Shown here: positions 3,746 through 59,662 of the stretch, piece by piece
Layout of the letters: each line of letters begins with the position of its first letter
Numbering within the stretch: position 1 is the stretch's first letter
Assembly (NCBI RefSeq): GCF_009296185.1
Contig: NZ_WBJR01000001.1
Span: forward strand, 372,001-436,000
Reading direction: 5' to 3'
Origin: Hydrogenovibrio sp. JE_KL2
GTDB lineage: Bacteria; Pseudomonadota; Gammaproteobacteria; Thiomicrospirales; Thiomicrospiraceae
DNA length: 64,000 bases
Translations under genes and position numbers: made by a program
Notes under the pieces: generated by a model
Seen by the model: the letters and a program-made list of their open reading frames with translations, nothing else
What the model was told of the DNA's origin: nothing
Databases searched by the model: none

Positions 3746-4495
3746 TTAATTTCCGTTTAGAAATAGCCACTCGATATCTGGCGACTGTCCCGGGCGTTCC
3801 GTGATCTTAAGCAACTGGGTTTCCGGGCGCCAGTCTCCCAGTGTCCATCGGTGTTTTTCTGCACCTTCAACCATAAAAGTTTGTTCGCCAGGGCGGTGCG
3901 TGTGACCGTGAATCAAATGATTACATTCCGGGTAGCGAGCCATGAGGCTTTCTACCGCGCCCTGATTCACATCCATAATGTTTTCCGCTTTATTCTGATT
4001 GTACTGCTGAGATTTCTTGCGCATATTTTCGCCGATTGCCAAACGCTTGGCTTTCGGCAATCGCAAAAACAACCATTGAATGATCGGGTTACGGAACCAG
4101 CGGCGCATCTTTTGATATTCCTTATCATCAATGCACAAGCTATCGCCATGGCTCAGCAGGATTTTTTCACCATAAAAATCTACCAGGTTGGGGTCGCTGA
4201 GCGATTGAATGCCAGTGGCTTTCCAGAAGGCGGATTTCATCAAAAAATCCCGGTTGCCGAATATCAAATAAACCCGAGTACCTTTTTTCACCAAGTCAGA
4301 AAGCTGTTGAATCGCTTTGGGAAAGGTTTCCAAGCCAACATCGTCACCCACCCACATTTCAAAAATATCACCAATCAGATACAAGGCTTCCGCTTGCGGC
4401 GCATCTTCTTGCAAAAAACGATAAAACGTCTTGTTAATCGGGTGGGTTTCATCCGGTTGTAAATGAATATCGGCGGTAATTAGAGAAAAGGGCAT
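3746..4495 (-). CDS. lpxH: UDP-2,3-diacylglucosamine diphosphatase
   Basis: LpxH cleaves UDP-2,3-diacylglucosamine to lipid X and UMP in lipid A synthesis at the inner membrane face. The 249-residue length is typical. Phosphoesterase motifs appear in order: N-terminal ADIHL, GDIFEMWVGDD, FGNRDF, LLSHGD and HGHTHRPG. A copy of the 19-bp dispersed motif is embedded in the coding sequence at 4175-4193, where it encodes DPNLVDF. The gene is followed convergently by the 128-residue unknown gene. Confidence 0.9.
   Translation of the reverse strand: MPFSLITADIHLQPDETHPINKTFYRFLQEDAPQAEALYLIGDIFEMWVGDDVGLETFPKAIQQLSDLVKKGTRVYLIFGNRDFLMKSAFWKATGIQSLSDPNLVDFYGEKILLSHGDSLCIDDKEYQKMRRWFRNPIIQWLFLRLPKAKRLAIGENMRKKSQQYNQNKAENIMDVNQGAVESLMARYPECNHLIHGHTHRPGEQTFMVEGAEKHRWTLGDWRPETQLLKITERPGQSPDIEWLFLNGN
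4175..4193 (+). repeat. Putative DNA uptake sequence copy inside lpxH
   Basis: AAAATCTACCAGGTTGGGG, an exact match to the A variant of the dispersed consensus. Read along lpxH it encodes PNLVDF. Confidence 0.7.
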
Positions 4496-4762
4496 GGAGT
4501 GAAATTGTCTTTAGCTGGAATTCTAAGCATTCTAGCCGAGAAGCGTGAAAAGTTAAGGAATAAAGTGTAGGCTGTATGATTTTTTAGTATAGCACAATTG
4601 CCTATTCAGTAAGTTGAAGATGAACACAAAACCATATTTATCTGATAAGTGACTAAGAATTTTTTTACCAGAGTTGAAATTCTTGTACTAATCTTTATAT
4701 TTTAAATGGAGTTCTGCAAAAAAGTTCTCATTAATTTTAATTAAAAAAAGGATATTCTTAAT

Positions 4763-5104: not shown

Positions 5105-5165
5105 AGGCTAATTTAAGCGCATCTACTTAAGAGTGGTGGTTATGTATGTCTAACGACCAAGATAA

Positions 5166-5210: not shown

Positions 5211-5774
5211 TTATTTAACTCCGAACCCCAATCCTTTCATGACCCATTTGGTCGTTCGGCGATCAAGTGGACTAGAGCGTCCTTTAAACCCCCGCATATC
5301 TCCAAAGGGATAAAAGCCGGCATCACTTTTTACTCCATTATTCAATAATTGAGAATATTCCAGCACATCAACGATAGCTTCGCGAATTTCTGAATCGGAT
5401 ACATTTTTACCATGAATCACTTTATCTCTAATTTTTTCAGCGGTCTTAATCCGCTCTAGAATTTCGGTGTCTAGGGGTTTGCCAAAGATATTTTTATATA
5501 GAATTAAAAAACCATCTCTAGTTACATGATGTTTATTAACTATTCTTTGTGCGATTTCCCTGCTGCCCCTATGAATTTTAACTACGCCTCCATATAAAAT
5601 TCTATTCATTGCTTGCTCAACTTTTTAAAAGCAATACGCAATACATATTTGATATGAATAGTTGTCATTTAAAAGGTCGGGTAGGTCTGAATAATATTTT
5701 TGAATTCTTGCATCGCTTTCATCAAATACTTTATTGATAGCAATATAACTAGGTACTTTTTTAGGTTGCGCCAA
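5211..5774 (-). pseudogene. HEPN-like protein gene interrupted by an in-frame stop
   Basis: The frame begins at a TTG at 5774 behind an AAGGA site and reads 49 codons (AQPKKVPSYIAINKVFDES...) to a TAA at 5625-5627. It then continues in the same frame through KVEQAMNRILYGGVVKIHRG to 5211, about 187 residues if joined. The text on both sides of the stop reads as one natural protein. RDKVIHG near the middle fits the R-x4-H motif of HEPN domains, which in active members form an RNase site. HEPN function is an inference from this short motif. The downstream part could also start at the ATG at 5609 as a 132-residue protein. Confidence 0.55.
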
Positions 5775-5901
5775 TGTGTTTCCTTATAAAAAATAATGGC
5801 CTAAGCGCGCTGCGCGAAAGCCTAGTCCGTCGGACGCTAATTAAAGTAGAAAGGCGAAAGATGATTTCGTCTTTTGACCTGTAAAGCGAGTCGTTAATAG
5901 A

Positions 5902-6408
5902 TCAATCGTCTTCTTTAACGATGGTTTTTTCCACAATAATATCTTCTACAGGCACGTCCTGATGACCACGGCGGTTAGTTGTTTCAACTTTTGCCATTGC
6001 ATCTAGCACATCCATCCCTTCAACGATTTTACCGAATACGGCATAACCCCAACCATGAACATCTTTTGATGTGTGGTCTAGGAAAGCGTTATCAACCAAG
6101 TTCATGAAGAACTGCGTGGTTGCTGAATGAGGTTCCATGGTACGTGCATAAGAGACAGAGCCGCGTACGTTTTTCAAACCATTGTCTGCTTCGTTTTCAA
6201 TAGGGTCACCAGAAGACTTTTCTTCCATGCCAGGAAGCATGCCGCCACCTTGCACCATGAAGTTAGGAATGATTCGGTGGAAAATGGTGCCGTTATAGAA
6301 TCCTTCCATTGCATAGTGAACAAAGTTTTCTGCACCGACGGGTGCATTTTCGTGATCCACTTCGATAGTGATGTCGCCCATATTGGTTTTGAAGGTGACT
6401 TGAGTCAT
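5902..6408 (-). CDS. ppiB: Peptidyl-prolyl cis-trans isomerase B (cyclophilin, cytoplasmic)
   Basis: A cyclophilin of 168 residues, the usual length of PpiB, which catalyses cis-trans isomerisation of X-Pro bonds. Typical stretches are FHRIIPNFMVQGG, SYARTMEPHSATTQFFMN and GYAVFGKIVEGMDVLD. There is no signal peptide, so it should act in the cytoplasm. The start is set by an AAGGAAA ribosome site. A second, exported cyclophilin gene lies just upstream on the same strand, separated by a hairpin carrying the dispersed 19-bp motif. Confidence 0.93.
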   Translation of the reverse strand: MTQVTFKTNMGDITIEVDHENAPVGAENFVHYAMEGFYNGTIFHRIIPNFMVQGGGMLPGMEEKSSGDPIENEADNGLKNVRGSVSYARTMEPHSATTQFFMNLVDNAFLDHTSKDVHGWGYAVFGKIVEGMDVLDAMAKVETTNRRGHQDVPVEDIIVEKTIVKEDD

Positions 6409-6466
6409 TCTGTTTCCTTTCTTTTTTTCTAAGTTGTCTTTTTAAAGTTGTCGAATAGTTAGTAGT

Positions 6467-6497
6467 GGCAGATTTTCATTTTTCAATAAAATCTGCC
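6467..6497. terminator. Hairpin built on a half uptake-like motif
   Basis: GGCAGATTTT (6467-6476) and AAAATCTGCC (6488-6497) pair perfectly over 10 bp around 11 bases. The right arm is the first half of a full 19-bp motif copy. It lies just after the stop of the exported cyclophilin gene and is followed by T-rich sequence on the minus strand, so it probably ends that transcript. Confidence 0.55.
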
Positions 6498-6506
6498 AGG
6501 TTGGGG
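6488..6506 (+). repeat. Putative DNA uptake sequence copy, intergenic
   Basis: AAAATCTGCCAGGTTGGGG, an exact match to the G variant of the consensus. It lies 10 bp past the end of the exported cyclophilin gene. Confidence 0.72.
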
Positions 6507-6516
6507 GTGTCAGCTA

Positions 6517-7173
6517 TTATTGAATTTGTGTTGCTTTGATAATAACCACTGGGTTATTCGGTACATCCCCCATACCGTTTTTGAAGCCGGTTTTGACCAT
6601 GCGAATATGGTTGACGACTTTCATGCCTTTGATCACGCGACCAAACACGGCATAGCCCCAAGCGCGGTCAGTTTTTTCACGGAAATCCAAAAAGGTGTTT
6701 TGTGCCACATTGATGAAGAACTGTGCTGTTGCCGAGTTAGGGTCATTGGTTCTTGCCATGGCAAGGGTGCCGATACGGTTGCGCAAGCCATTGTCCGCTT
6801 CGTTTGGAATCGGTTCATGGGTTGGTTTTTTCTGTAGGTCAGTTGTAAACCCGCCACCTTGAATCATGAAATTGGGAATGACACGGTGAAAAATGGTGCC
6901 ATCATAAAAATGTTCGTTCACGTAACGCAGGAAGTTGGCGACCGTTTTAGGTGCTTTTTTTGGAAACAGCTCAACGGTGATGTCACCCATATTGGTTTGA
7001 ATCAGCACACGAGGATTGGTTTTGACGTTGTCGTAAGCGCTACCATCGGCATTGGCCTTTGAAAAGGGCGAGAACATCAAGCCAAGTGTTGCTAAAGCAA
7101 AGAATGTCGAGAAGAGTCCGGTAAACAGTACGCGTCTGTTTAGCAAAGAGTGTTGTTTCACTGGTTGTGTCAT
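6517..7173 (-). CDS. ppiA: Peptidyl-prolyl cis-trans isomerase A-type (exported cyclophilin)
   Basis: A cyclophilin with an N-terminal hydrophobic segment (VLFTGLFSTFFALATLGLMF) that should be a signal peptide or membrane anchor. The ATG at 7173 is preferred because GAGGA precedes it; an upstream ATG at 7197 is possible. Catalytic-core text FHRVIPNFMIQGGGF, AMARTNDPNSATAQFFIN and GYAVFGRVIKGMKVV closely parallels the neighbouring ppiB. The likely role is folding of periplasmic proteins. The two genes may be an old tandem duplication with one copy having gained an export signal. Confidence 0.88.
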   Translation of the reverse strand: MTQPVKQHSLLNRRVLFTGLFSTFFALATLGLMFSPFSKANADGSAYDNVKTNPRVLIQTNMGDITVELFPKKAPKTVANFLRYVNEHFYDGTIFHRVIPNFMIQGGGFTTDLQKKPTHEPIPNEADNGLRNRIGTLAMARTNDPNSATAQFFINVAQNTFLDFREKTDRAWGYAVFGRVIKGMKVVNHIRMVKTGFKNGMGDVPNNPVVIIKATQIQ

Positions 7174-7353
7174 AAGCGTTCCTCGTAGCGGTCGCATTCG
7201 GTTTGAGTGCCGAAATTCGTTGAGAAAATTGTCATGCGAGAATCGACGAGTTGAGAAGTCTTATGGAAGTTTTCTGGAAGACTTCGCTCTGCCGTCGAGG
7301 CATAAAATTGGTGTGATTCTAACATGAATTACCCGCTTTGCCGCGGCTGATAA

Positions 7354-7362
7354 TGCTATAAT
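7354..7362 (+). promoter_or_regulatory. Extended -10 promoter of glnS
   Basis: TGCTATAAT is an extended -10 element with no good -35 box. It is the best promoter seen upstream of glnS and would start RNA near 7369, leaving a leader of about 218 bases. Confidence 0.5.
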
Positions 7363-7368
7363 TTTTCG

Positions 7369-7586
7369 ATTATTAATTAAGGTGAGTGTTTTGCATGAGG
7401 TGGCTGCACGGATAAAAATGATTAAAATTTTCCATATTTTCGTTGAACAACTTGCCAATAACTCGTTATTGGCTACGTTTTCCGTCTTAATCTGAAAAAT
7501 TTTTCTGCATTTTTCTCTCGAGCCCCACTCATGCAAAGCTCTCTGCATCGACATTCAAAAGGATTGGAGTAAAGGGTTTTTGCATA
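7369..7586 (+). ncRNA. Structured 5' leader of glnS (7198-7586 otherwise without a gene)
   Basis: TTTGCATGAG at 7390-7399 pairs with CTCATGCAAA at 7528-7537, and GGCT at 7402-7405 pairs with AGCC at 7521-7524. These close a domain of about 150 bases. Inside, GCCAATAA and TTATTGGC (7454-7473) form a strong hairpin around CTCG. No intrinsic terminator precedes glnS. It could be a regulatory leader, but no known riboswitch class was recognised. Confidence 0.45.
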
Positions 7587-9260
7587 ATGAGTCAAAACGA
7601 AGCAATCGATAAACCGACCAATTTCATCCGTCATATCATTGACGAAGACTTAGCCTCACACAAGCACGATCACATTCATACGCGCTTTCCCCCTGAACCG
7701 AACGGTTACTTACACATCGGCCACGCAAAGTCGATTTGTTTGAACTTCGGCTTGGCGGAAGACTATAACGGCGCTTGTAACTTGCGCTTTGATGACACCA
7801 ACCCTGCAAAAGAAGATATCGAATATGTCGAGTCCATCATGCATGATGTCGCTTGGCTAGGATTCAAGTGGGAAGGAAAACCTCGCTATTCCTCGAATTA
7901 TTTTCAGCAGTTCCATGATTATGCCGTCGAGTTGATTAAAAAAGGGTTGGCGTATGTCGACTTCTCTTCTCCGGAAGAGATGCGTGAAGCGCGTGGTACT
8001 TTGAAAGAGCCAGGTAAGAACAGCCCTTATCGTGATACCTCTGTGGACGAGAACCTAGCGTTGTTCGCGAAGATGCGCCAAGGTGAGTTCAAAGAAGGCG
8101 AGTGTGTGTTGCGTGCCAAAATCGATATGGCTTCCAGCTTTATGTGTATGCGTGATCCGACACTTTATCGTATCCGTTTTGCAACGCACCACCAAACAGG
8201 CGATGAATGGTGTATTTACCCTATGTATGACTTTGCGCATTCGGTTTCGGATGCGATTGAAGGCATTACTCACTCGCTTTGTACTTTGGAGTTCCAAGAC
8301 AACCGTCGTTTGTATGATTGGGTTCAGGAGAATTTGGATGACTTCAACAAACCGGATCGTCCGCACCAATATGAGTTCTCAAGACTGAACTTGGCTTATA
8401 CCGTGATGTCTAAGCGTAAGCTGCATCAGTTGGTGGAAGACAAGTTGGTTTCCGGTTGGGATGACCCTCGCATGCCGACTATTTCAGGTATGCGTCGTCG
8501 TGGTTATACGCCGGCGGCTTTGCGTGACTTTGCAGAGCGTATCGGTATTTCAAAAGTCGACAGCATGACTGAGATGAGCATTCTTGAAGCGTCTATTCGT
8601 GATGATTTGAACGTGGTCGCACCAAGAACAATGGGGGTAATCGACCCAATCAAAGTGATTATCGAAAACTATCCTGAAGGTCAGGTTGAGTCGATTCAAG
8701 CGCCAGTTCATCCGCAGAATGAAGAGATGGGCAAACGTGAGATTTTCTTTAGCCGTGAGCTTTACATCGACAGAGCGGATTTCATTGAAGAAGCGCCGAA
8801 TAAGAAATGGCAACGTTTGGCGATAGACAAAGAAGTACGTCTGCGTAACGCTTATATCGTTAAAGCCGAAAGATTTGAGACAGATGCCGACGGTAACTTT
8901 ACGACAATTTATTGTTCTTATGACCCGGAAACCCTAGGTAAGAATCCGGCAGATGGACGTAAGGTGAAAGGGGTTATTCACTTTGTGGAAGCGACTAAAG
9001 CGGTTGCGGCAGAGTTCCGTCTGTATGATCGTTTATTTACCGTTGAAAACCCAGGCAAAGCAGAAGACTTTGAGTCGGTACTGAACCCGAACTCTTTGAA
9101 AATCATGCAAGGGTTTGTTGAACCCAACCTGGCAGATTCTGTACCGGAAGTCGCTTACCAGTTTGAACGCGAAGGCTACTTCTGCCGTGACAACAAGTCT
9201 GAAGGGTTGGTCTTCAATAAAACGGTTGGTTTGCGCGATACTTGGACGCAAGCTCAATAA
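7587..9260 (+). CDS. glnS: Glutaminyl-tRNA synthetase
   Basis: The enzyme charges tRNA-Gln with glutamine. At 557 residues it has the normal length of bacterial GlnRS. The class I HIGH motif is in [16 protein letters not shown] near residue 35, and the KMSKS equivalent is VMSKRKL near 270. The C-terminal half holds the two anticodon-binding beta barrels. The direct ORF start ATG at 7587 fits the family N-terminus. The leader upstream is long and structured. A degenerate copy of the dispersed motif lies at 9122-9140. Confidence 0.97.
9122..9140 (-). repeat. Degenerate putative uptake sequence copy inside glnS
   Basis: The plus strand reads ACCCAACCTGGCAGATTCT, two mismatches from the reverse complement of the consensus. 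It encodes PNLADS in glnS. Confidence 0.5.
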
Positions 9261-9327
9261 GTCTATGATTCACTTGAAGGCGTGTTTTCTGCACGCCTGA
9301 CAACTTTTCTGAAATACAGGAAACAGC

Positions 9328-10704
9328 ATGTCCTTACAGATTTACAACACGGAAACCCGTCAAAAAGAAACCTTTAAACCGATACACGACAATGAAGTAG
9401 GTATCTATGTTTGCGGAGTGACGGTTTATGATTATTGTCACATCGGCCACGCACGTGTCATGGTGGTGTTTGATACGGTTGTGCGTCATTTGAGAGCCTT
9501 GGGCTATAACGTGACCTATGTGCGAAATATTACCGATATCGACGATAAGATCATCAAACGCGCATTGGAGAATGGTGAAAGTATTCAATCTTTGACGGGC
9601 CGTTTTATTGATGCCATGCACGAAGACGAAGCGGCGATGAATGTTTTGCGCCCGGATATTGAGCCACTTGCTACCGAGCACATGCAGGATATTGAGAGCA
9701 TGATTTCGACCTTGATTGAAAAAGGGCATGCTTATCCGGCGGAAAATGGTGATGTTTATTTCAATGTGAAGTCCGATAAAGATTATGGTCGTTTGTCGGG
9801 CAAAAACATCGATGACTTAGAGTCGGGTGCTCGCGTTGAAGTAAATGAAGTTAAAAAAGATCCTTTGGACTTTGTGTTGTGGAAGGCTTCAAAAGAAAAT
9901 GAACCGGCTTGGTCTTCACCGTGGGGAGAAGGGCGTCCGGGTTGGCATATCGAATGTTCGGCCATGTCTACCAAATGTCTAGGCAACCACTTCGACATTC
10001 ATGGTGGTGGTATGGACTTGAGTTTTCCGCATCATGAAAACGAAATCGCTCAGTCGGAATGTGCAACTGGTGAGCATTATGTGAATACCTGGATGCATTG
10101 TGGTTTCGTGCGCGTGGACGACGAGAAGATGTCTAAGTCTTTGGGCAACTTCTTTACCATTCGTGAAGTGTTGAAGTTGTATCACCCGGAAGTGATTCGT
10201 TATTTCCTATTGGCGAGTCATTACCGCAGCCCGGTGAATTACTCGGAAGACAATCTGGAAGTTGCAAAATCCAGCGTGTCGCGTTTGTACTCGGCATTGG
10301 AAAGCTTTACACCAGACCAGTTGAGCGCCGCAGAAGCAGGTACAAACTACGAAGTTGAATTCAACGATGCGATGAACGATGACTTTAATACCCCTCAGGC
10401 GATGGCAGTGTTGTTTGAGTTGGCGAAAGAAGTGAACAAGACCAAGTCTGAAACCTTGGGCGGCTTGTTGAAAAAACTGGCAAATCAAATCGGTTTGTTG
10501 GAGCAGGATGCGAATGTATTCTTCAAATCTCAGCCTTCGCAATCAGATTTGACGGATGATGCGATTCAGTCTTTGATTGATGAGCGCGCGGAAGTGAGAA
10601 AGAATAAAGACTTTGCTCGTTCGGATCAAATTCGTGACGAACTGTTGGCGCAAGGAATTGAGTTGTTGGATTCTCCTCAAGGCACTACTTGGAGAAAAGT
10701 GTAG
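9328..10704 (+). CDS. cysS: Cysteinyl-tRNA synthetase
   Basis: The class I synthetase charges tRNA-Cys. Its 458 residues are typical. CGVTVYDYCHIGHARVMVVFD holds the HIGH motif and a zinc cysteine, GWHIECSAM and the HHENEIAQSE stretch contribute further zinc ligands, and KMSKSLGN is the second ATP motif. It lies 67 bp after glnS on the same strand and has an AGGAAA ribosome site, so the two may be co-transcribed. Confidence 0.97.
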   Translation: MSLQIYNTETRQKETFKPIHDNEVGIYVCGVTVYDYCHIGHARVMVVFDTVVRHLRALGYNVTYVRNITDIDDKIIKRALENGESIQSLTGRFIDAMHEDEAAMNVLRPDIEPLATEHMQDIESMISTLIEKGHAYPAENGDVYFNVKSDKDYGRLSGKNIDDLESGARVEVNEVKKDPLDFVLWKASKENEPAWSSPWGEGRPGWHIECSAMSTKCLGNHFDIHGGGMDLSFPHHENEIAQSECATGEHYVNTWMHCGFVRVDDEKMSKSLGNFFTIREVLKLYHPEVIRYFLLASHYRSPVNYSEDNLEVAKSSVSRLYSALESFTPDQLSAAEAGTNYEVEFNDAMNDDFNTPQAMAVLFELAKEVNKTKSETLGGLLKKLANQIGLLEQDANVFFKSQPSQSDLTDDAIQSLIDERAEVRKNKDFARSDQIRDELLAQGIELLDSPQGTTWRKV

Positions 10705-10857
10705 TTAAATTTTTTTGAAAGAAGTCATAAAAATTTAACAATTGTCCGGCTTTCTAAGCCGCTCTGCATAAGCATTTTATAGTAAAAACCTTTTTAAAAA
10801 TATGGTTTTATATTAAGTAAGTTTATAATTTTTAATAACTTTTTTACATATTAATGT

Positions 10858-10886
10858 TTGACAATATAAGGGAAAACTCATATACT
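10858..10886 (+). promoter_or_regulatory. Consensus sigma-70 promoter of candidate sRNA
   Basis: TTGACA (10858-10863) and TATACT (10881-10886) are separated by exactly 17 bases. The -35 is perfect and the -10 has one mismatch. No open reading frame follows; a terminator is found about 100 bases downstream. Confidence 0.75.
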
Positions 10887-19173: not shown

Positions 19174-19191
19174 AAAATCTGCCAGGTTGGG
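19174..19191 (+). repeat. Putative DNA uptake sequence copy, intergenic
   Basis: AAAATCTGCCAGGTTGGG, exact over 18 bases. It lies between the terminator and the convergent stop. CCAGGT/ACCTGG give it a further short palindrome. Confidence 0.7.
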
Positions 19192-19215
19192 TACCTGGAC
19201 CTGAGTTGTTGCGAG

Positions 19216-35491: not shown

Positions 35492-35515
35492 AGCGGTCGA
35501 GTTACTAAAATTTTT

Positions 35516-45752: not shown

Positions 45753-45771
45753 AAAATCTACCAGGTTGGGG
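45753..45771 (+). repeat. Putative DNA uptake sequence copy, left arm of the inverted pair
   Basis: AAAATCTACCAGGTTGGGG, exact A variant. Confidence 0.75.
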
Positions 45772-45785
45772 AGATAACTTTGATA

Positions 45786-45803
45786 CCCAACCTGGTAGAT
45801 TTT
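45786..45803 (-). repeat. Putative DNA uptake sequence copy, right arm of the inverted pair
   Basis: The plus strand reads CCCAACCTGGTAGATTTT, exact over 18 bases. Its last bases are part of the 8-bp target duplication of the ISL3 element. Confidence 0.75.
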
Positions 45804-45805
45804 AA
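45798..45805. repeat. Target site duplication, left copy
   Basis: GATTTTAA directly abuts the left end of the element at 45806. The same 8 bases follow the right end. ISL3-family elements make 8-bp duplications. Confidence 0.75.
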
Positions 45806-45828
45806 GGGTTTGCGGAATAGTGCGTGGA
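45806..45828 (+). repeat. Left terminal inverted repeat of the ISL3 element
   Basis: Begins GGGTTTGC and ends with the 15-bp core GGAATAGTGCGTGGA, which is repeated exactly in inverse at the right end. Confidence 0.85.
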
Positions 45829-45865
45829 GTCTAGTTTTTTAATCTTTTATCAAAAACTCAAAAAC

Positions 45866-45880
45866 GGAATAGTCAGTGGA
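45866..45880 (+). repeat. Subterminal copy of the inverted-repeat core
   Basis: GGAATAGTCAGTGGA matches 13 of 15 bases of the terminal core, in the same orientation, 52 bp inside the left end. It may be an extra transposase binding site or regulatory site near the passenger gene promoter. Confidence 0.5.
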
Positions 45881-45927
45881 AAGCTTTGTGCTAAACTTTA
45901 CTCCATAAAATGGAATGGAGTGTGGAA

Positions 45928-48366
45928 ATGGCAAAAAAGGAAGCAAAAACAGATTTATGGGTTCATGGTTTACTAAAAGAAGCAGGCATTGACCTTGAAC
46001 CCCAAGGTAGCACTATTCTTGAAATTGATAATGCCTTAAAAACAGCTTCTAAAAGCGGCTCTGGCAAAGTAGGTTTTCCTGAATTTGTTGGCGTTGTGAA
46101 AGATTTTATTCTTGTTATAGAGAATAAAGCTGATGTTGCTAAACACGTAAAGCTTGATTCAAAAGGCTTGATTAGCGGAACGGTTAAGGACGTTAAGGAT
46201 TTTGCTGTTAACGGCGCTCTTTTTTATGGCCAGCATTTAGCTCAAAACACGTCTTACAAGAAAGTTATCGCCTTTGGTATTTCTGGCGATGAAAAGAAAC
46301 ACAAAATTAGCCCATACTTTATTGATGAAACAGAGTATTACCGTGAGCTACCAGAGGTAGAGTCTTTCATCTCATTCAATGAAAATAACATTATTGAATA
46401 CTATACAAGAGAAGTTCTGCAAGAGGATACCGACCAAGAAAAAGAACTCGCTGAAATCTTACGTGATGCTTCAGAACTGCACGAAGATTTAAGGAATTAC
46501 GGAAATCTAAAAGATATTGATAAACCACTAATTGTTTCGGGTATTTTATTAGCCCTTAGAGAGGCTGAATTCGGTGGTTTTGATGTCAATCACTTAACTG
46601 GAGATGAGATTGATACAGATGGCGACAAAATATATAGCGCTATCGAAAAAAACCTTAAGCGTTCAAAAGTAGCTCCAGATGTCAAAAGGGATAAGATTCT
46701 TAGCCAGTTCTCGATTATTAAAGATACACAAATCTTAAATGAGATAAACACCACGCTGAACAAAACCCCTCTTAAGCATTTCACTGAATTTTTACATGAC
46801 AAAATTTACAAAAGCATCAAATACACAAGCTCTTCTGAGGACTATTTAGGGCGCTTTTATGGCGAATTTATGTCCTATTCTGGCGGTGATGGACAGACCC
46901 TTGGAATTGTATTAACCCCTAAGCATATTACCGACCTATTCTGTGATTTAGTTGACATCAAATCGGATGACACCGTGCTTGACCCTTGTGCGGGAACAGC
47001 AGGCTTTTTAATCGCTGCTATGCATCACATGATTGCACGAACAGACAATGAAAATAACAAGAAAAACATCCGTCAGAAACAATTACATGGTTTTGAATTA
47101 CAGCCCTATATGTTCACCATTGCCACAACCAATATGATTTTGCGAGGCGATGGAAAAAGCAATCTAATTAATCATAACTTTCTAAACGAAGACCCAAATA
47201 AGCTCCAATTAAAAGGTGCAACCGTTGGGATGATGAATCCGCCATATTCACAAGGCTCAAAGAAAAATCCAGATTTATATGAGATTGCCTTTACAGAGCA
47301 CTTGCTAGATTCATTATTAGAAGGCGGTCGGGCAATTGTGATTATTCCGCAATCCTCTTTAACAGGGAAATCTAAGGAAGAAAAAGCAATAAAGGCGAAC
47401 ATCCTTAAAAACCATACGCTAGAAGGCGTTATCTCGCTCAATAAAGACACGTTTTATGGTGTGGGAACCATTCCATGTATTGCCATTTTTACGGCTGGCG
47501 AACCTCATCCAGAAGACAAGGAGTGTAAGTTTATCGACTTTAGAGAGGATGGGTTTAAAGTTAGTCCTCATGTTGGATTGATTGAAACAGAACAAGCTAA
47601 AGACAAGAAGCAACACCTTTTAGATGTTTGGTTTGACCGCATTGAAGCAGAAAGTAAATTCTGCGTTAAAACAACTGTTGAAGCGGATGATGAGTGGCTT
47701 CATAGCTTCTATTACTTCAATGATGAGCTACCAAGTGATGCTGACTTTGAAAAAACTATCGTGGATTATCTGACGTTTGAATCGTCGATGATTATGCAGG
47801 GTCGGGAATATCTTTTTAATTCAATAGGCTCCAAGAAGGTTTTTGTAGACATTGAAAGCCTTGATGATAAGGGATGGCATGAATTCTTCCTAAAGGACAT
47901 TTTTCAAGTTGTTCAGCGTGGTAAGCGTCTCACTAAAGCAAACCAAACAGAAGGAAATCACCCTTATGTTTCATCAACCGCAATGAATAATGGGGTGGAT
48001 AACTTTATTGGAAATGAAGAGGGTGTTCGCATATTCTCAAGTTGTTTGACTATCGCAAACAGTGGAAGCGTTGGCTCAAGCTTTTATCACCCGTACAAAT
48101 TTGTCGCAAGTGACCATGTGACTCATTTACAAAATGATAAGTTCGACCGCCATATCTACCTGTTCATAGCGACTTTAACAAACAGGCTGTCGGATAAATA
48201 CAACTTCAATAGAGAGATTAACGACAAACGCATTTCAAGAGATAAAATCATGCTTCCCACCCAAGATGACGGAAGCCCTGATTTTGAATATATGAGGCAA
48301 TATATGATGAATCTGGAATATCAGAAACGGAATCAATATCTTGACTACATTCAAAGTCAAAGTTGA
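45928..48366 (+). CDS. Type IIG-like restriction-modification enzyme (nuclease-methylase-specificity fusion) carried by the IS
   Basis: The polypeptide has about 812 residues from the ATG at 45928 (GGAG site); the frame opens at 45910. Counting from 45910, the N-terminal part has a PD-(D/E)xK-like site, Asp 65 then ENK (71-73) in DFILVIENKAD. A helical domain precedes an N6-adenine methylase with DPCAGTAG (358-365) and NPPY (443-446). The C-terminal part, from about residue 660, resembles one type I HsdS target-recognition domain (HEFFLKDIFQVVQRGKRL). One chain thus holds cutting, methylating and DNA-recognising parts, as BcgI-like type IIG enzymes do. Activity is inferred. No separate R, M or S gene is present. 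Confidence 0.8.
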   Translation: MAKKEAKTDLWVHGLLKEAGIDLEPQGSTILEIDNALKTASKSGSGKVGFPEFVGVVKDFILVIENKADVAKHVKLDSKGLISGTVKDVKDFAVNGALFYGQHLAQNTSYKKVIAFGISGDEKKHKISPYFIDETEYYRELPEVESFISFNENNIIEYYTREVLQEDTDQEKELAEILRDASELHEDLRNYGNLKDIDKPLIVSGILLALREAEFGGFDVNHLTGDEIDTDGDKIYSAIEKNLKRSKVAPDVKRDKILSQFSIIKDTQILNEINTTLNKTPLKHFTEFLHDKIYKSIKYTSSSEDYLGRFYGEFMSYSGGDGQTLGIVLTPKHITDLFCDLVDIKSDDTVLDPCAGTAGFLIAAMHHMIARTDNENNKKNIRQKQLHGFELQPYMFTIATTNMILRGDGKSNLINHNFLNEDPNKLQLKGATVGMMNPPYSQGSKKNPDLYEIAFTEHLLDSLLEGGRAIVIIPQSSLTGKSKEEKAIKANILKNHTLEGVISLNKDTFYGVGTIPCIAIFTAGEPHPEDKECKFIDFREDGFKVSPHVGLIETEQAKDKKQHLLDVWFDRIEAESKFCVKTTVEADDEWLHSFYYFNDELPSDADFEKTIVDYLTFESSMIMQGREYLFNSIGSKKVFVDIESLDDKGWHEFFLKDIFQVVQRGKRLTKANQTEGNHPYVSSTAMNNGVDNFIGNEEGVRIFSSCLTIANSGSVGSSFYHPYKFVASDHVTHLQNDKFDRHIYLFIATLTNRLSDKYNFNREINDKRISRDKIMLPTQDDGSPDFEYMRQYMMNLEYQKRNQYLDYIQSQS

Positions 48367-48379
48367 GTAACGCTTATTT

Positions 48380-49744
48380 ATGAGCTTGCTCAATCTGCAA
48401 AGCTTTCATGTTCTCTCTCAACAAGAGCATGAAAGCCATTTAGAAATCACCGTAGAAAACCTGTTTAAGCCACAAGCCTGTCCGCATTGCGGCTTTACAC
48501 AACTCTACTCCCACGACAAAACAGAGCAGATTTTCTTTGACATGCCGATGCAGGGAAAACCTCTTGTCCTAAAAACGCAACGTGTCCGCTACAAATGCCG
48601 TTCATGTGGTAAAACTTTTCGGGAGCCTTTAGCTGATATTGATGGTAAGCGTTTAATGACAACTCGACTCAAAGAGTACATTCAAAAGCGTTCCATGAGC
48701 GATACCTTTGCAGTGGTTGCCAGAGAAACAGGTCTGGATGAGAAAACGATTCGTCATGTTTTTGATGATTACGTTGCGGAAAAATCTAAAGAAATGCCAT
48801 TCGAAACGCCTAGAGTGCTTGGCATTGATGAATTAAAGTTAGTCGGTAGCTATCGTTGCATCTTAACCAATATTGAGAAGTGTAGCGTTTTTGATATGTT
48901 GCCCTCTCGAAAGAAAGCCGATGTTATGAAACACTTAAAATCTCTTAAAAATCCTGAGAAGGTTGAAATAGTGACAATGGATATGTGGTTGCCTTATAGA
49001 GATACGGTCAAGCAGATTTTACCTGATGCTGTGATAGTAATTGATAAATTCCACATTGTCGCCACTGCCTCAAAATGTCTTGAAAAAGCTTGTAAAGGCA
49101 TTCGCAGCCAGCTCGAAAAAAAAGAGCGTATCAAAAAGAATGACCGTTTTGTTCTGTTAAAGCGTCGCCATTCATTGACCGATAAAGAGGTTATAAAACT
49201 ACAACAATGGTCAGCAAGGTTTCCAGATTTAGGGTTGGCCTATGATGCAAAAGAAGCGTTTTATTGTCTGTTTGACCAAGGCTTAGATTCCAAAGCCGCA
49301 GAGCAAGCTTTAATTGATTGGCAAAGAGGCTTATCACCTCAAATTGCACATTACTTTGAAGCTTTAACAACTGCATTATCGAACTGGATGCCAGAAATTT
49401 TGAATGGCTTTGTTTTTGATTACGAAATAACAAATGCCTATACTGAGAGCATTAATCGCTATGCAAAGGATGTTCAGCGTATGGGTAGAGGATACAGTTT
49501 TAATGTGGTAAGGGCTAAAATGCTCTACAACGCAGAGGCAAATAAACCAACAACCAGTACGATTCGCAAGAAGAAGCGAAAACCTATTGAAGAAGCACCT
49601 GTCTTTTATTTAATGTTGGATAACCTTACTGGTTCAGCTTCACAAAAACAGAAATACAGAACAGAAATTATTGAAGAAAAACGCTATTACGGTGCTCACA
49701 TTCCCACTCTTTGCGAATTACTCGAAAAAGGTGAATTTGACTAA
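48380..49744 (+). CDS. ISL3-family transposase
   Basis: A 454-residue DDE transposase. The N-terminal zinc ribbon has CPHCG (34-38) and YKCRSCGKTF (72-81), then a helix-turn-helix region. GIDELKLVGSYRCILTNIEK, VTMDMWLPYRDTVKQILPDAVIVIDKFHIV and TNAYTESINRYAKD carry the DDE residues of the ISL3 group. Full length with no frameshift, so probably active. The start is 13 bp after the restriction gene stop, so both are likely on one transcript. Confidence 0.95.
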   Translation: MSLLNLQSFHVLSQQEHESHLEITVENLFKPQACPHCGFTQLYSHDKTEQIFFDMPMQGKPLVLKTQRVRYKCRSCGKTFREPLADIDGKRLMTTRLKEYIQKRSMSDTFAVVARETGLDEKTIRHVFDDYVAEKSKEMPFETPRVLGIDELKLVGSYRCILTNIEKCSVFDMLPSRKKADVMKHLKSLKNPEKVEIVTMDMWLPYRDTVKQILPDAVIVIDKFHIVATASKCLEKACKGIRSQLEKKERIKKNDRFVLLKRRHSLTDKEVIKLQQWSARFPDLGLAYDAKEAFYCLFDQGLDSKAAEQALIDWQRGLSPQIAHYFEALTTALSNWMPEILNGFVFDYEITNAYTESINRYAKDVQRMGRGYSFNVVRAKMLYNAEANKPTTSTIRKKKRKPIEEAPVFYLMLDNLTGSASQKQKYRTEIIEEKRYYGAHIPTLCELLEKGEFD

Positions 49745-49790
49745 ATTCCCAATTTAGCTGGAACGTGTGTGGAATTCATTTAATAGATTT

Positions 49791-49813
49791 TCCACGCACT
49801 ATTCCAGGTCCCC
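49791..49813 (-). repeat. Right terminal inverted repeat of the ISL3 element
   Basis: The plus strand reads TCCACGCACTATTCC followed by AGGTCCCC to 49813. The core is exactly inverse to the left end. Confidence 0.85.
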
Positions 49814-49821
49814 GATTTTAA
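49814..49821. repeat. Target site duplication, right copy
   Basis: GATTTTAA, identical to 45798-45805, directly after the right end. Confidence 0.75.
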
Positions 49822-49832
49822 AGGACAGTGTA

Positions 49833-50081
49833 TTAGGGTGCTTCGTTAGTGTTGTCTGATTGTCTGCGCTCTTCGGCTTGGCGTTCGGCTTCGTATTTCT
49901 CTCGAATTTGATGGGTGTAGCGATAGGTGATCCACAAAATTGGAAAAACGATAATCAGCGAATAGATCATGGACATAATACTTGCCGCAACTGTCGTGCC
50001 TTGCAGATGAACCGCCAAGCCGACAATGAACATAATCAACAGGCTGTTTCTCAATGCACGTTTAAAAGGGGACTGAAGCAT
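49833..50081 (-). CDS. Small membrane protein, 82 aa
   Basis: A hypothetical protein with two transmembrane segments, residues 12-28 (SLLIMFIVGLAVHLQG) and 33-53 (ASIMSMIYSLIIVFPILWITY), and a charged cytoplasmic tail rich in Glu, Arg and Gln. AAAGGAA precedes the ATG. It follows the DUF1841 gene by 18 bp. The stop is 11 bp from the right target duplication, so the ISL3 element separated the gene from its old terminator. Confidence 0.75.
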   Translation of the reverse strand: MLQSPFKRALRNSLLIMFIVGLAVHLQGTTVAASIMSMIYSLIIVFPILWITYRYTHQIREKYEAERQAEERRQSDNTNEAP

Positions 50082-52886: not shown

Positions 52887-52905
52887 AAAATCTACCAGGT
52901 TGGGG
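52887..52905 (+). repeat. Putative DNA uptake sequence copy at the 3' end of the beta-lactamase gene
   Basis: AAAATCTACCAGGTTGGGG, exact. It abuts the stop codon of the beta-lactamase gene. Confidence 0.72.
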
Positions 52906-53817
52906 TTAATGCGGCGAAAACTGATCGCTGATAATTCTCCCCACTTGTTCAAGTACATGGTTTCTGGTTTCAAAAGGTTCTTTGCTGCCAGTGTAATAAA
53001 CCGCCACTAAAATCGGGTCATCGGCATCCGGCCACATGATGGCGATGTCGTTCATCGCACCATTGTTTCCAGAACCGGTTTTATCACCGATAGGCCAGTA
53101 GGTCGGAATGCCGGCACGAAGCTTATTGGCACCAGTTGTGTTATTTAGCATCCATTGTGTGAGTTGGTTTTTTGAAGCTTCTGACAACACATGTCCCAAA
53201 AGGATTTTCTTCATGCTTTTCAACATGGCGTTGGGCGTTGTGGTATCGCGTTCATCACCAGGTATATTGGTGTTGAGATGGGGCTCAATACGATCAACAC
53301 GGGTTTCCCTGTCACCAATGCTTCGCATAAAGGTCGTCAGTCCTTGCGGGCCTCGAACAGGCTCAAACAGCAAGTTGGCGGCAGTATTATCACTATGTTG
53401 AAGCGCGGCCGCCAGTAATTGCGAAACGGTCATTTCGCCCTCGCCATTATGTAGGTTTTTTCGCGTGATGGGGGCATAGTTCAACAGGTCAGAAGTGGAG
53501 TAGGTGACAACACGACTAAGAGACTCTTCTTTGGCATCTACTTTGGCGAGCACTGAAGCCGCTAGCAGGAACTTAAAGGTACTACACAAAGCAAAGCGTT
53601 CATTGCCTCGGTATTGCAGTTGAAAGCCACTACTGGCGTCCCAAACCGCGACGCCAAGACGCCCGCCGAAAGTAGATTCCAGCTCTGAGATTTGCTGTTT
53701 GAAGTTTGCTTGGGCACTTTTCAAGCTATCGGCATAGGCTGGGGCGACAAACAGCCATAATGACAGGGTAAAGAAAGAAGACACTATCGTTGTTTTGACA
53801 GTCTGTAATACTTTCAT
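52906..53817 (-). CDS. bla: Class A beta-lactamase
   Basis: A periplasmic serine hydrolase of 303 residues from the ATG at 53817 (AAAGGA site), with a signal peptide (SSFFTLSLWLFVAPAYA). Motifs by Ambler scheme: CSTFKF (Cys 69, Ser 70, Lys 73), HSDN (130 loop), EPHLN (Glu 166, Asn 170) and DKTGSG (Lys 234, Thr 235, Ser 237, Gly 238). Gly 238 rules out the Cys 69-Cys 238 bridge of KPC-like carbapenemases; Ser 237 recalls CTX-M. It stands alone with no mobile element beside it. Substrate range is unknown. Confidence 0.94.
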   Translation of the reverse strand: MKVLQTVKTTIVSSFFTLSLWLFVAPAYADSLKSAQANFKQQISELESTFGGRLGVAVWDASSGFQLQYRGNERFALCSTFKFLLAASVLAKVDAKEESLSRVVTYSTSDLLNYAPITRKNLHNGEGEMTVSQLLAAALQHSDNTAANLLFEPVRGPQGLTTFMRSIGDRETRVDRIEPHLNTNIPGDERDTTTPNAMLKSMKKILLGHVLSEASKNQLTQWMLNNTTGANKLRAGIPTYWPIGDKTGSGNNGAMNDIAIMWPDADDPILVAVYYTGSKEPFETRNHVLEQVGRIISDQFSPH

Positions 53818-53886
53818 AAAGTTTCCTTTAGCAAGGTTAAGCATGCGGCGTCGTTATTAAACGCCATGTGGGCAAAGAGATGCAAC

Positions 53887-54471
53887 TTATCGTTTGGCAA
53901 TCAGTTGGACGACAGCGCCCAATCCGCTATGAAAAGTGCCTTCGGAGACATCTCTTTCAGTTTCGTGCATCATTAAGCAATCCAGTCCTTGGATTTCGTT
54001 TTCTAAATTCTCTAGGCTGACGGTCATCTCAACCACTTGTGGTCCGCCGGTTTTGTATTCGAGTTGCTTCGGGCAATAGGCTTCCAGCAAAAAGATGCCG
54101 TTAGGTTTTAGTGCATTTGCGATTTGCGCATGAACACCTTGCCGCATGGCAGGAGGCAAATGGCAGAAAATGGAAACGATACCGTCCCATTTGGATTGAC
54201 CTAGGTCGAAATGAGCAAGGTCGGCAACGACAGTCTCGATTGCTACGCCGCGTTGTTGAGCCAGTTTTTGCGCTTTTTCCAATCCGACGGCAGAGTTGTC
54301 TACCGCAGTGACATCATAGCCTTGTTCTGCAAGAAAAACGGCATTGCGACCTTCACCTTCAGCCAAACAAAGTACTTTGCCTTTTGGCAGTTGTTGGTAA
54401 TGTTCGGCAAGAAAAGTGTTAGGTGATGTTCCGTAAACATATTCATCAACGGCGTAGCGATCATCCCACAT
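53887..54471 (-). CDS. TehB/UbiE-like SAM-dependent methyltransferase
   Basis: A small methyltransferase of 194 residues. VLCLAEGEGRNAVFLAEQGYDVTAVDNSAVGLEKAQ is motif I with the next strand; IVSIFCHLPPAMRQ follows. The text WDDRYAVDEYVYGTSPNTFL is seen in a common gammaproteobacterial group related to TehB, thiopurine methyltransferases and others. The substrate is not known. Confidence 0.82.
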   Translation of the reverse strand: MWDDRYAVDEYVYGTSPNTFLAEHYQQLPKGKVLCLAEGEGRNAVFLAEQGYDVTAVDNSAVGLEKAQKLAQQRGVAIETVVADLAHFDLGQSKWDGIVSIFCHLPPAMRQGVHAQIANALKPNGIFLLEAYCPKQLEYKTGGPQVVEMTVSLENLENEIQGLDCLMMHETERDVSEGTFHSGLGAVVQLIAKR

Positions 54472-56486: not shown

Positions 56487-57527
56487 CTATTTTTTGTGCC
56501 CAAATACACGCGGTGTGGTGTATTGGTCAATCAAAGGTACGAACATATTCAAAATCAATACGGCAAAAGCGATTCCATCCGGAAAAGCGCCCCAGTTACG
56601 AATGATATACACCATAATACCAATGCCAATTGCATAGACCAAACGCCCTTTTGGCGTGGTGCTTGAAGTGACTGGGTCGGTGATGATAAAGAAGGCAGCC
56701 AGCATAACGCCACCGGAAAGTAAGTGGTAGCTTACAGGTGCATAAGTGCTAGGGTCGATTTGATGAAAAATGAACGCCATGGTCGCCAATGCGCTCAGAA
56801 AGCCAACCGGATATTGCCAGCGAATCGTGCGTTTATACAGCAACCATAAACCGCCCAATAGGAAAGCCAAGTTGACTTCTCCCCAACCAATCGGGAAGGC
56901 ATCTTTTCCGAAAGTGGCACTGTTGAGTGTTGCTCCGACGGGGACGCCTGTTGAAAGCGCTGTTTTTACTTCTCCTAGTGGGGTCGCTCCTGTGATTTGG
57001 TCGATAGCAACATTCGCGTGGCCGAAGAAAATCACCGATGCGGATTCCATGAAACTAAGGTAGTGTCCTGATACTTCAGCCGGCAGTGTCCACTGTGTAA
57101 CTTGCGCCGGAAATGAGATCAATAGGAAGGCATAGCCGAGCATTGCCGGGTTGAATGGGTTATAGCCCAATCCGCCATAGAGATGCTTTCCGAAAATCAG
57201 CGCAAAGGTTACGCCCGATACAATGATCCACCAAGGCGCTTCTGGCGGAATACAAAATACGATACCGGTGATGGTAATCAAGCCACTTAGATCTGCCAGA
57301 TAAGGAATAACAGGGCGTCGACGAAGCTTAAGCATTGCGGTTTCGACAACCAAAAGCGTTAAAACTGCCAGCGCCCATTGGATAGTGATACCAAAGCCAA
57401 AGAAGTAAATATGTGCCATTAACGCAGGGATGGCAGCATATTGCACCTGAATCATGGTTTTACGCACCGAAACGACATCATGCGTAAAAGGAGAGGTTGC
57501 GGTATTAAGTAATGAGTTATCGCTCAT
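56487..57527 (-). CDS. rnfD: Rnf complex subunit D (FMN-bearing)
   Basis: An integral membrane protein of 346 residues, with FMN attached to Thr in ITGATPLGEV. Family text SPFTHDVVSVRKTMIQVQYAAIPALMAHIYFFG and KHLYGGLGYNPFNPAMLGYAFLLISFP is clear. Its ATG overlaps the rnfC stop by 4 bp, so the genes are translationally coupled. Confidence 0.95.
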   Translation of the reverse strand: MSDNSLLNTATSPFTHDVVSVRKTMIQVQYAAIPALMAHIYFFGFGITIQWALAVLTLLVVETAMLKLRRRPVIPYLADLSGLITITGIVFCIPPEAPWWIIVSGVTFALIFGKHLYGGLGYNPFNPAMLGYAFLLISFPAQVTQWTLPAEVSGHYLSFMESASVIFFGHANVAIDQITGATPLGEVKTALSTGVPVGATLNSATFGKDAFPIGWGEVNLAFLLGGLWLLYKRTIRWQYPVGFLSALATMAFIFHQIDPSTYAPVSYHLLSGGVMLAAFFIITDPVTSSTTPKGRLVYAIGIGIMVYIIRNWGAFPDGIAFAVLILNMFVPLIDQYTTPRVFGHKK

Positions 57528-59662
57528 GAATCACTTCCTGATGTTTCAGTATTGTCAGGCAGGGGTTTCTTGCGTGCTGCGGCACGTTTTTTCGCAGCTT
57601 CCATTGCAGCTTGACGCTTATCGACCACTGGTGCTTCTTCCACCTTAGCAGTGTTTTCTTCCTGCGCTGAGATTTCTGTTTGGTCTGCTTGCATTTGACG
57701 TTTTGCAGCCATTTCCTGAGCACGTTTCTGTGCCGCTAAACGTGCGCGGGTCTTGGCATCCAATTCGGGTGAATCCACTTCGGCAGTATGTGATGAGGTG
57801 TCCTTTGCTGTCTCGGATTCTGATTCCGTATTTTCGGATTTTTTCGCCGCCGCCTGAGCACGTTTTTTAGCGGCCGCCATGGCTTTTCCACGTGCCGACA
57901 TAGCAGGGTTGGTTGCCGCTTGTGGTTCAGATTTTTCAGTGGCAGCTTCGGCACGTTTCCTCGCGGCAGCAATCGCTTTTTCGCGCGCGGATAGCGGTGC
58001 ACCTGGCTGTTTTTCGTCCTCAGAAGTTGCTGTACTTTCAGTAGTTGTAGCATCACTTGATTGCGCTGCTTTTTTGCGAGCTGCTGCGGCTCTAGCGGCG
58101 GCTGCGGCAGACGAAGGGGCTTTTTGCTCAGGTGCCGGAGTGGAGGCTTCTTGTTCGGCTTCATTTGCGGCTTTGCGTTTAACCGCTTCTTTTTTGGCTT
58201 TCAGCTTCGCTTCACGTTCCTGTTTGATGCGTTCTTCGCGAGCCAATTTTGCCTCATGGCGTTCTTTCGCGCGTTGAGTGGCTAAGGTTTCTTGTTTGTT
58301 CTTTTTCACTTCGCCTTTGGCAAAGCGGTAGTACTGAACCAATGGGATATGGCTTGGGCACACAAAACTACAGCATCCGCATTCGATACAGTCGAATAGA
58401 TTGAGCTTTTCAGCTTTGTCGAACTCATGGCTGCGAGCATGCCAGTATAGTTGTTGCGGTAATAGGTTAACGGGGCAGGCATCCATACACTCACCACAAC
58501 GAATACAAGGCATGACCATTTCGGCAGGTTTTGGCGGATTCGCCAAGATACAGTTAGTGGTTTTAATGACGGGTACATGATTGTTTGGCATTTCAAAGCC
58601 CATCATCGGACCACCCTGTACAAGCGGATAATTGAGTTTGGTTTTTGGCTCTGCAAGCTCAACCAAATCCTCAAAGGAAGTTCCTATCAATGCTTCAATA
58701 TTGAATGGATGGTTTAGTCCCAAACCGGAAACTGTCACATAACGAGATGTCAAAGGTTTGCCGTGACGTACGGCATGAAAAATAGCAGCAAAGGTGGCAA
58801 CGTTCATCATCAACAGACCAATGTCGACCGCATGAGCGTGTGCAGGCACTTCAATACCTGTCAGTTGCTGAGTCAGTTGTTTTTGTCCCCCCATCGGGTA
58901 AACCGTCGGAACAGGTTGAATTTCTACCAGGTTGGGGTGGTCAAGCTCTGCCACGGCTGCCTGCATAGATTCAATGGCTTCAGGTTTATTGTCTTCGATA
59001 CCACAGATTATGCGTTCACACCCTAAAGCCTCGGCAACAATTATCGCACCGTGAATAATGTCTTTGGGATGCGTTTGCATCAAAATATCATCACAAGTGA
59101 TAAAAGGCTCACACTCAGCGCCGTTGACCAGTAGGGTGTGGATTTTGCCTTTTTCATCCGGTATTTTGGCAAAAGTAGGGAAGCCTGCGCCACCCATGCC
59201 GACGATACCTGCACGATAAACCAGTTCTTTTAATGCCTTGGGATCCGAAGGTGTTTTGCCATCAGTTTTCAAAATATTGTCAATGGCTTCGTCTTTGAAA
59301 TCCGGTTTCAGCACAATGCAAAGCCCAGTCAACCCCGATGGATGCGGCAGGGTACGATTCTCAATGGCGACAATTTCACCGGATGTTGGGGCATGTACCG
59401 GGGCGCTAAGCCCCTTTTTGCTTTCGGCAAGGCACTGATTTTTGAGGACTTTGTCACCCACTTGAACTTTTGGTTCAGTCTCGACGCCGACGTGTTGATG
59501 AAGTGGCAGAATCAACTCGTTCGGGATAAAGCTTTTATGAATAGGGTGCTGTTTCGACAAGCTTTTGTTGTAACGAGGAAAAACGCCGCCGCTGAAGCGA
59601 TACAGTCGACGCTTCGCCATAGGATAGATTTTGGCAAGAAACTTAAAGAAACCGGTTTTCAT
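57524..59662 (-). CDS. rnfC: Rnf complex subunit C with long Ala/Lys-rich tail
   Basis: The NADH-side subunit of 712 residues. [14 protein letters not shown] binds NADH/FMN, and two ferredoxin-like clusters are bound by [12 protein letters not shown] and [12 protein letters not shown]. After about residue 450 the tail of some 250 residues is rich in Ala, Lys, Glu and Arg with repeats such as [13 protein letters not shown] and [15 protein letters not shown]. Such tails are known in enterobacterial RnfC. One dispersed motif copy lies at 58919-58937. Confidence 0.95.
58919..58937 (+). repeat. Putative DNA uptake sequence copy inside rnfC
   Basis: AATTTCTACCAGGTTGGGG, two mismatches in the A-run only. 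Encodes PNLVEI in rnfC. Confidence 0.6.

Follow-up and report, generated by a model that had tools for sequence, protein, structure and literature searches.

What kind of element is a 19-bp sequence that recurs 14 times within a single 64,000-bp stretch of bacterial DNA (the window; Hydrogenovibrio sp. JE_KL2, contig NZ_WBJR01000001.1, positions 372,001 to 436,000)? A preliminary description of the window had noted that the copies of AAAATCTRCCAGGTTGGGG are mostly exact, with two mismatches at worst, had judged their recurrence to be beyond chance, and had read them as a DNA uptake sequence. Counting at up to three mismatches returned the same 14 places, all of them real, except that one inverted copy lies at 45785-45803 and not at 45786 (Table 1). 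Eight copies are exact, and the other six divide equally between one and two mismatches; the chance expectation is 0.01 per 64 kb, and none of 100 dinucleotide shuffles of the window attained 14 copies. We estimate the probability that the motif is a DNA uptake sequence at about 0.8, judging from sequence comparisons. The find is larger than first stated: dialects that resemble uptake sequences and are related to one another occur in a third bacterial family. We also see a somewhat better than even chance that the family of Hydrogenovibrio, Thiomicrorhabdus and Thiomicrospira holds a third, independently evolved system of self-DNA uptake, with mostly palindromic tags whose probable reader is an MSHA-like pilus, through one of its minor pilins, and with an asymmetric 19-mer instead in one lineage. 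The open-access literature yielded no description of the motif and none of competence or uptake sequences in this family, and the open-access papers containing the motif strings or the palindrome were, among the matches listed and by title and start of abstract, unrelated.

The genome holding the window (G000; 2.44 Mb, 15 contigs) contains 415 matches at up to three mismatches, split 201 to 214 between the strands, while the pattern read backwards, serving as a control, gave 2. The copies are therefore spread genome-wide and not confined to the window, and the excess on which the preliminary description had made its reading depend is present. In a sample of 464 kb of G000 (the window and 20 further stretches, 86 sites), 48, 30, 5 and 3 sites had zero, one, two and three mismatches, respectively, compared with means of 0, 0, 0 and 0.25 for 20 shuffled motifs. 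The consensus was AAAATCTRCCAGGTTGGGK. Position 8 was A in 30 and G in 56 of the 86 sites, position 19 was mostly G or T, and the remaining positions were nearly fixed. Since T replaced G at position 19 in 20 of the 30 one-mismatch sites, the true consensus ends in K. The logo was sharp over the 19 positions and carried more than 30 bits in sum; its flanks were nearly flat, with at most 0.19 bit at any position outside the motif, in agreement with the earlier remark that no longer repeat encloses the copies. The same element came out of a k-mer scan covering 400 kb of G000, where the seven top 9-, 10- and 11-mers were all pieces of the 19-mer. A further repeat, unrelated to the motif and at most about 250 bp long, was seen at two places of the G000 sample (L220 14760-15060; L240 around 7513).

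Placement was determined in 564 kb of G000 (23% of the genome, 105 sites), with open reading frames (ORFs) taken as the longest non-overlapping frames of at least 100 aa. Outside ORFs, 72 of the 105 sites were found, compared with about 11 expected, and 40 of these 72 lay between convergent ORFs; the 33 copies inside ORFs occurred on both strands and in all frames. Inverted pairs, already pointed out in the preliminary description, numbered 16 with starts less than 120 bp apart, all in opposite orientation, and ten of them were head-to-head with 9-45 bp between the arms. In G000, comEA has an inverted motif pair within about 1 kb after it (C1:52848-53033 and 53941-53994). In the window, the pair at 45753/45785 has 13 bp between its arms and forms a terminator-like stem with a predicted fold of -35 kcal/mol (z = -8). 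Sites in permissive places together with terminator-like inverted pairs are as described for uptake sequences in the portions consulted of PMC2397512 and PMC3630211. The same pairs, their folding and the enrichment outside ORFs and between convergent ORFs could also be explained by a family-specific transcription terminator element, which we regard as very unlikely: 73 of the 105 copies stand outside such pairs, two single copies that were folded gave no stable structure (z -0.09 and 0.84), whereas an intrinsic terminator would have a GC stem with a T-run at each copy, and a third of the copies (33/105) lie inside ORFs on either strand. Moreover, a terminator requires neither a fixed 19-bp sequence nor the concerted one-base change described below.

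Orthologous sites were compared with two sister genomes. Between G000 and G008, 15 of 16 alignable sites were common, ungapped and with T at position 14 throughout, ten of them being identical over the 19 bases. The alignment with the more distant G007 covered 252 kb at 78% identity, and 31 of 36 sites had a partner motif within 60 bp, while five had none; conversely, of the 35 motifs that G007 has within these spans, 5 lacked a G000 partner. At 30 of the 31 shared sites, G007 carries C where G000 carries T at position 14, for a background T-to-C frequency of 0.08, and the single T exception sits inside comEC. The 16 fixed motif positions were 98% identical between the two genomes, a figure that leaves out the five lost sites because the partners were found by matching the motif (position 14 free, at most three mismatches); positions 8 and 19 differed at 15/31 and 13/31 sites. 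In G005, a palindromic form occupies the same place at the one alignable G000 site, and another palindrome of G005 within the alignments stands opposite no motif in G000. The sites are thus old, narrow in form and different all together between species, a pattern that speaks for concerted evolution driven by a single reader. In the palindrome, CCAGG is followed by C, so that the C form of position 14 may predate the T form. The flanks of the sites were more divergent than average (identity 0.748, n 31, vs 0.778, n 1122; P 0.004), which the consulted part of PMC2397512 also reports for Neisseria.

This conservation bears on a further explanation, namely that the copies are remnants of a dispersed mobile element (REP, MITE or similar). 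Hundreds of copies lying mostly outside ORFs would suit such an element, yet there is little flank signal beyond the 19 bp, no longer unit was found within the window, and the persistence of 31 of 36 alignable sites in the same place at 78% genome identity contradicts it; we give this explanation next to no weight. In a viral collection, from which near relatives of the window may be missing, three contigs carried one exact copy of the motif each.

Table 1. Copies of the 19-mer and the comEC gene in the window, with the state of each site in related genomes.
Feature	Position	Strand	Match to AAAATCTRCCAGGTTGGGG	Context or domain	Site in relatives
Motif copy	4175-4193	+	exact, A at position 8	within ORF 3746-4495(-), metallophosphatase family	G007 ortholog with C at position 14
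Motif copy	6488-6506	+	exact	about 10 bp past end of ORF 6517-7197(-)	G007 ortholog with C at position 14
Motif copy	9122-9140	-	2 mismatches	within Glu/Gln-type tRNA synthetase gene 7587-9260(+)	G007 ortholog with C at position 14
Motif copy	19174-19192	+	final base T	between convergent ORFs	G007 ortholog with C at position 14, alignment gapped at last base
Motif copy	20803-20821	-	2 mismatches	within helicase gene 20646-24665(+)	both mismatches also in G007, plus C at position 14
Motif copy	24542-24560	-	exact	within helicase gene 20646-24665(+), close to 3' end	G007 with C at position 14; G005 with AATTTCGACCAGGCCTGGG at same place
Motif copy	24678-24696	+	exact	just past 3' end of helicase gene 20646-24665(+)	absent from G007
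Motif copy	29087-29105	+	1 mismatch	extreme 3' end of HDOD gene 29085-29930(-)	identical in G008, lost in G007
comEC	35438-38059	+		Pfam Competence PF03772 (E 4.9e-53), with DUF4131 and Lactamase_B	
Motif copy	35904-35922	-	exact	within comEC	identical in G008; T at position 14 in G007
Motif copy	40229-40247	-	exact	about 25 bp past cytidylyltransferase gene 39439-40203(+)	identical in G008; G007 with C at position 14
Motif copy	45753-45771	+	exact	left arm of inverted pair	present in G008 and G007
Motif copy	45785-45803	-	final base T	right arm of inverted pair	present in G008 and G007
Motif copy	52887-52905	+	exact	abuts end of ORF 52906-53844(-), beta-lactamase-family protein (PF13354)	identical in G008
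Motif copy	58919-58937	+	2 mismatches	within RnfC-like gene 57524-59662(-)	identical in G008; G007 keeps mismatches, adds C at position 14

The comparison was extended to 62 genomes of the family, including 11 of the genus of the window. The 19-mer was numerous in three of these 11, namely G000 (415), G008 (391) and G007 (375), the last with its C dialect at position 14. In a nine-row ComEC tree, the three 19-mer genomes formed one clade (100/100) with G007 outside G000 and G008. A palindrome, CCAGGCCTGG, was present in 106-856 copies in 27 of the 62 family genomes, where the control gave 0-2. The palindrome and the 19-mer have one half in common: the left half (AAAA-n4-CCAGG, an A-tract, four bases and CCAGG) is common to the 19-mer and to G005, G010 and G014, while the right half of the 19-mer is YTGGGK. 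The pattern MCMGGCCKGK was enriched in eight further genomes (G022, G023, G026, G033, G036, G041, G046 and G047), and sampling gave variant cores, ACCGGCCGGT in G026, ACAGGCCTGT in G046 and an asymmetric one in G022. In the first 20 kb of the latter (G022 C1:1-20000), this core, CCCGGCCTGT, is followed by TGAG and a T-run in six copies, and it may be a second case, independent of the first, in which the palindrome was broken. G002 (25 copies vs 3 in the control) and several genomes at about twice the control were not counted as enriched. Tracts of A and T, separated from the palindrome by about four bases, such as AAAAAc..CCAGGCCTGG..gTTTTT in G005, were clear in four of ten palindrome genomes sampled (G005, G010, G014 and G061) and in G046, and weak or absent in G006, G009, G020, G031, G054 and G056; they are not claimed for the whole family. 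In 11 genomes, 137 of 220 palindromic sites were in coding DNA. Loci of about 22 kb held seven palindromes in H. halophilus, eight in Thiomicrorhabdus sp. Milos-T2 and five each in a Thiomicrospira metagenome-assembled genome (MAG) and a Piscirickettsiaceae MAG; loci of the same size from T. heinhorstiae, T. marina and strain 6S3-12 held none of seven cores. In a GlnRS tree, H. halophilus did not group with G000 and G007. Across 365 gammaproteobacterial genomes of other families, the palindrome never exceeded 46 copies and the 19-mer never exceeded 3. The comparison with relatives proposed in the preliminary description thus yielded two sister genomes with the motif or its one-base dialect and a related palindrome in many genomes of the family.

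Palindromy is what a symmetric dimer would recognise, and a chromosome-wide binding site of a cytoplasmic DNA-binding protein (a nucleoid organiser, segregation or repair factor) must be weighed for this reason. In such a case, which would be similar to HIP1 of cyanobacteria, the specificity of the protein would have changed and the sites would have followed by selection at each of them. In favour of it, the concerted difference in place demands just one common reader, and many motif-free genomes have ComEC and DprA. We nevertheless find this explanation unlikely, since strong selection would be needed at each of about 400 sites, many of them coding (33/105 in G000; 137/220 for the palindromic form), since the bias towards permissive spots between convergent genes (40/72) suits a tolerated tag and not a locally acting site, and since the motif strand is weakly tied to the direction of replication.

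Biased uptake of tagged DNA followed by allele replacement would, in contrast, explain the site pattern without selection at each site. A receptor that recognises the sequence, most plausibly one of the minor pilins of the MSHA-like type IV pilus, would capture free tagged DNA at the cell exterior, and this pilus, together with PilT, would draw it in. ComEA and ComEC would then pass one strand inside, where DprA and RecA would recombine it, as in the generally known pathway of natural transformation. We propose that alleles with a good tag replace those with a poor tag because tagged fragments are preferentially taken up, so that copies would build up, and keep a nearly perfect form, at every place where the sequence can tolerate them; when the preference of the receptor shifts, the copies would follow in place. 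The other motif-bearing Hydrogenovibrio genomes hold the palindromic form, in several of them set between tracts (A-tract, about 4 bp, CCAGGCCTGG, about 4 bp, T-tract).

Of the genes expected for this route, those for ComEC, ComEA, DprA, PilT and an MSHA-like assembly machine were found. ComEC, the inner-membrane DNA channel of natural transformation and the proposed user of the tag, is encoded in the window itself, and ComEA and DprA are also present in G000. Among 60 genomes of the family searched, ComEC matched in 55, DprA in 60 and ComEA in 52; the MshL model matched in 55, above the cut-off in 36, some of the weaker matches being other secretins. The MSHA-like assembly cluster of G000 includes an assembly ATPase that carries a c-di-GMP motif related to MshE, an MshL-like secretin scoring close to the cut-off and a GspF/PilC-like protein scoring below its cut-offs, and PilT was above its own. 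In genomes at least 90% complete, ComEA was lacking in none of 32 with a motif and in 4 of 18 without one (P 0.013); the P values for gene co-occurrence are uncorrected for kinship or for several tests, and G041 and G043 are outside the table, as the searches of 60 genomes did not include them. For the receptor, a G000 cluster of three prepilins and one prepilin-like neighbour (C8:194.5-198 kb), upstream of a gene that by eye resembles miaB, is a candidate region. Identities of its proteins to their G000 forms range from 79 to 95% in G008 and from 51 to 76% in G007, a faster change than in most neighbouring genes. Prepilin matches numbered three in each 19-mer genome and 7 to 9 in the three palindromic Hydrogenovibrio genomes searched, and a 184-aa prepilin type was present in all 11 genomes aligned, including the motif-free G024 and G029. 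Identifying the receptor by divergence was dropped, as the changes in the prepilin cluster show nothing dialect-specific; the prepilin data narrow the search for a receptor that is still putative. The idea that PilQ is lacking from the 19-mer genomes was dropped as well, since none of the 60 genomes passed the PilQ cut-off; a PilQ-like match of about 700 aa adjoins, on reading, apparent type II secretion genes GspF/G/H/I/J/K in G005, G010, G024, G026 and G031. A secretin of about 530 aa in G000 belongs, by eye, to an apparent Tad/Flp locus; genes that read as those of a Tad/Flp pilus, additional to the MSHA-like system, are at G000 C12:10000-20400. Two tandem arrays, each perhaps a repeat adhesin gene, were also seen: 28 copies of an 11-mer mostly 318 bp apart in G007 (C1:1-20000) and 18 copies of a 306-bp unit in G005 (C1:100001-120000, 5662-10864).

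Several observations weigh against an uptake sequence. No clear motif was found in 24 of the 62 family genomes, G013 of the same genus is without the palindrome, and MAGs labelled Hydrogenovibrio (UBA650 and UBA654, 12 and 22 kb) held none of the seven cores. A de novo motif search in 20-40 kb each of the Thiomicrorhabdus genomes G024, G028, G029, G030, G042, G050 and G051 gave none that was clear, at a depth that a low-density dialect could escape, and the de novo sampling covered 3.8 kb of G013 and 9.7 kb of G018. ComEC, DprA and the MSHA-like secretin are present in most motif-free genomes too, so gene presence separates the two groups weakly, and neither ComEC (P 0.29) nor MshL (P 0.29) separates them. 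The MshL frame is broken by a stop or split in the motif-rich G020 (C1:1755518-1756388) and G026 (C1:2177308-2178176), which could reflect recent loss or sequencing error, and in G036, which has a variant motif, ComEC and MshL were undetected (92% complete, 520 contigs); these three genomes count against a simple requirement for MSHA. No prepilin was tied to the motif, and prepilin identities gave no link to dialect. Within G000, the spacing of the sites was not significantly more even than random (P 0.22), and copies per kb were more numerous in short stretches unaligned to G007 (7 in 20 kb) than in aligned DNA (33 in 226 kb); two unaligned blocks of more than 1.5 kb, 7.4 kb together, held no site where about one was expected, which is little data. 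Finally, the G-rich strand of the motif coincided somewhat more frequently with the G-rich and presumably leading strand (44 vs 28).

This strand bias, together with a type I methylase-specificity gene adjoining the inverted pair of the window, is what a restriction-modification-linked site or a polarity signal such as Chi or KOPS might leave. Such a site is highly improbable here: the strands are balanced genome-wide (201 vs 214), a motif of more than 30 bits is far longer than sites of this kind, and although the methylase island is unmatched in the G007 stretches compared, both copies of the neighbouring pair are present there. The island itself is a 4.1 kb block (window 45803-49869) with an ISL3 transposase and a type I methylase/specificity fusion gene; it contains no motif copy, has no match in the G007 stretches compared, and begins exactly where the inverted pair ends.

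With these points taken into account, the interpretation as a DNA uptake sequence given in the preliminary description gains support from the genome-wide excess, the dialects in relatives, the sites conserved in place and differing in concert, the permissive placement and the terminator-like inverted pairs. Several of the properties by which uptake sequences are recognised occur together here: overrepresentation on both strands, permissive placement, conservation in place with dialects that follow phylogeny, and genes for the machinery. To our knowledge, self-DNA uptake tags are so far known in just two other bacterial families, and the family studied here is known as one of free-living sulfur oxidisers. 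If the reading is true, this third case would offer an independent test of why tags evolve, be it mate choice, repair or selfish drive. The palindrome, the asymmetric 19-mer and the one-base dialect series would be direct material on a receptor and hundreds of sites changing in step, and the one-base difference between G000 and G007 at shared sites would be a snapshot of a genome-wide change of uptake language. The tag could also serve as a practical tool for transforming these bacteria.

When compared to known systems, the element resembles in behaviour the DNA uptake sequences (DUS) of Neisseriaceae, for which the consulted parts of PMC3630211 and PMC2397512 describe very many copies, terminator-linked inverted pairs, dialects following phylogeny, a permissive core-region location and highly conserved sites, all of them features shared here. 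DUS are read by the minor pilin ComP and, according to the same portion of PMC3630211, keep a CTG core in all dialects, whereas the motif has CTA or CTG, depending on position 8 (A in 30/86, G in 56/86). It also differs from DUS in its unrelated sequence, its length of 19 bp and its density of about 170 per Mb (415 in 2.44 Mb), and where DUS have ComP, the receptor here is putative, no ComP-like protein having been identified. The uptake signal sequences (USS) of Pasteurellaceae have a core of AAGTGCGGT or, in a second form, ACAAGCGGT, with A/T-rich flanks. A short core, a gammaproteobacterial host and more than one dialect are, as far as the consulted parts of PMC12616744 and PMC1939737 go, common to USS and to the present element, as are A/T-rich flanks. 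The receptor of USS is predicted as PpdA/ComN. In contrast to USS, the core here is CCAGG, unrelated to AAGTGCGGT, the A-tract precedes the core, the commonest dialects are palindromic, and tracts stand on both sides in several genomes; neither USS core was among the seven top k-mers of the 400 kb of G000, a scan in which the USS cores themselves were not counted. HIP1 of cyanobacteria is likewise a palindrome, highly iterated and present many times per Mb, and we know of no asymmetric dialect of it. Unlike HIP1, the palindrome and the asymmetric form of this family have the same half and, at the one alignable site, the same locus.

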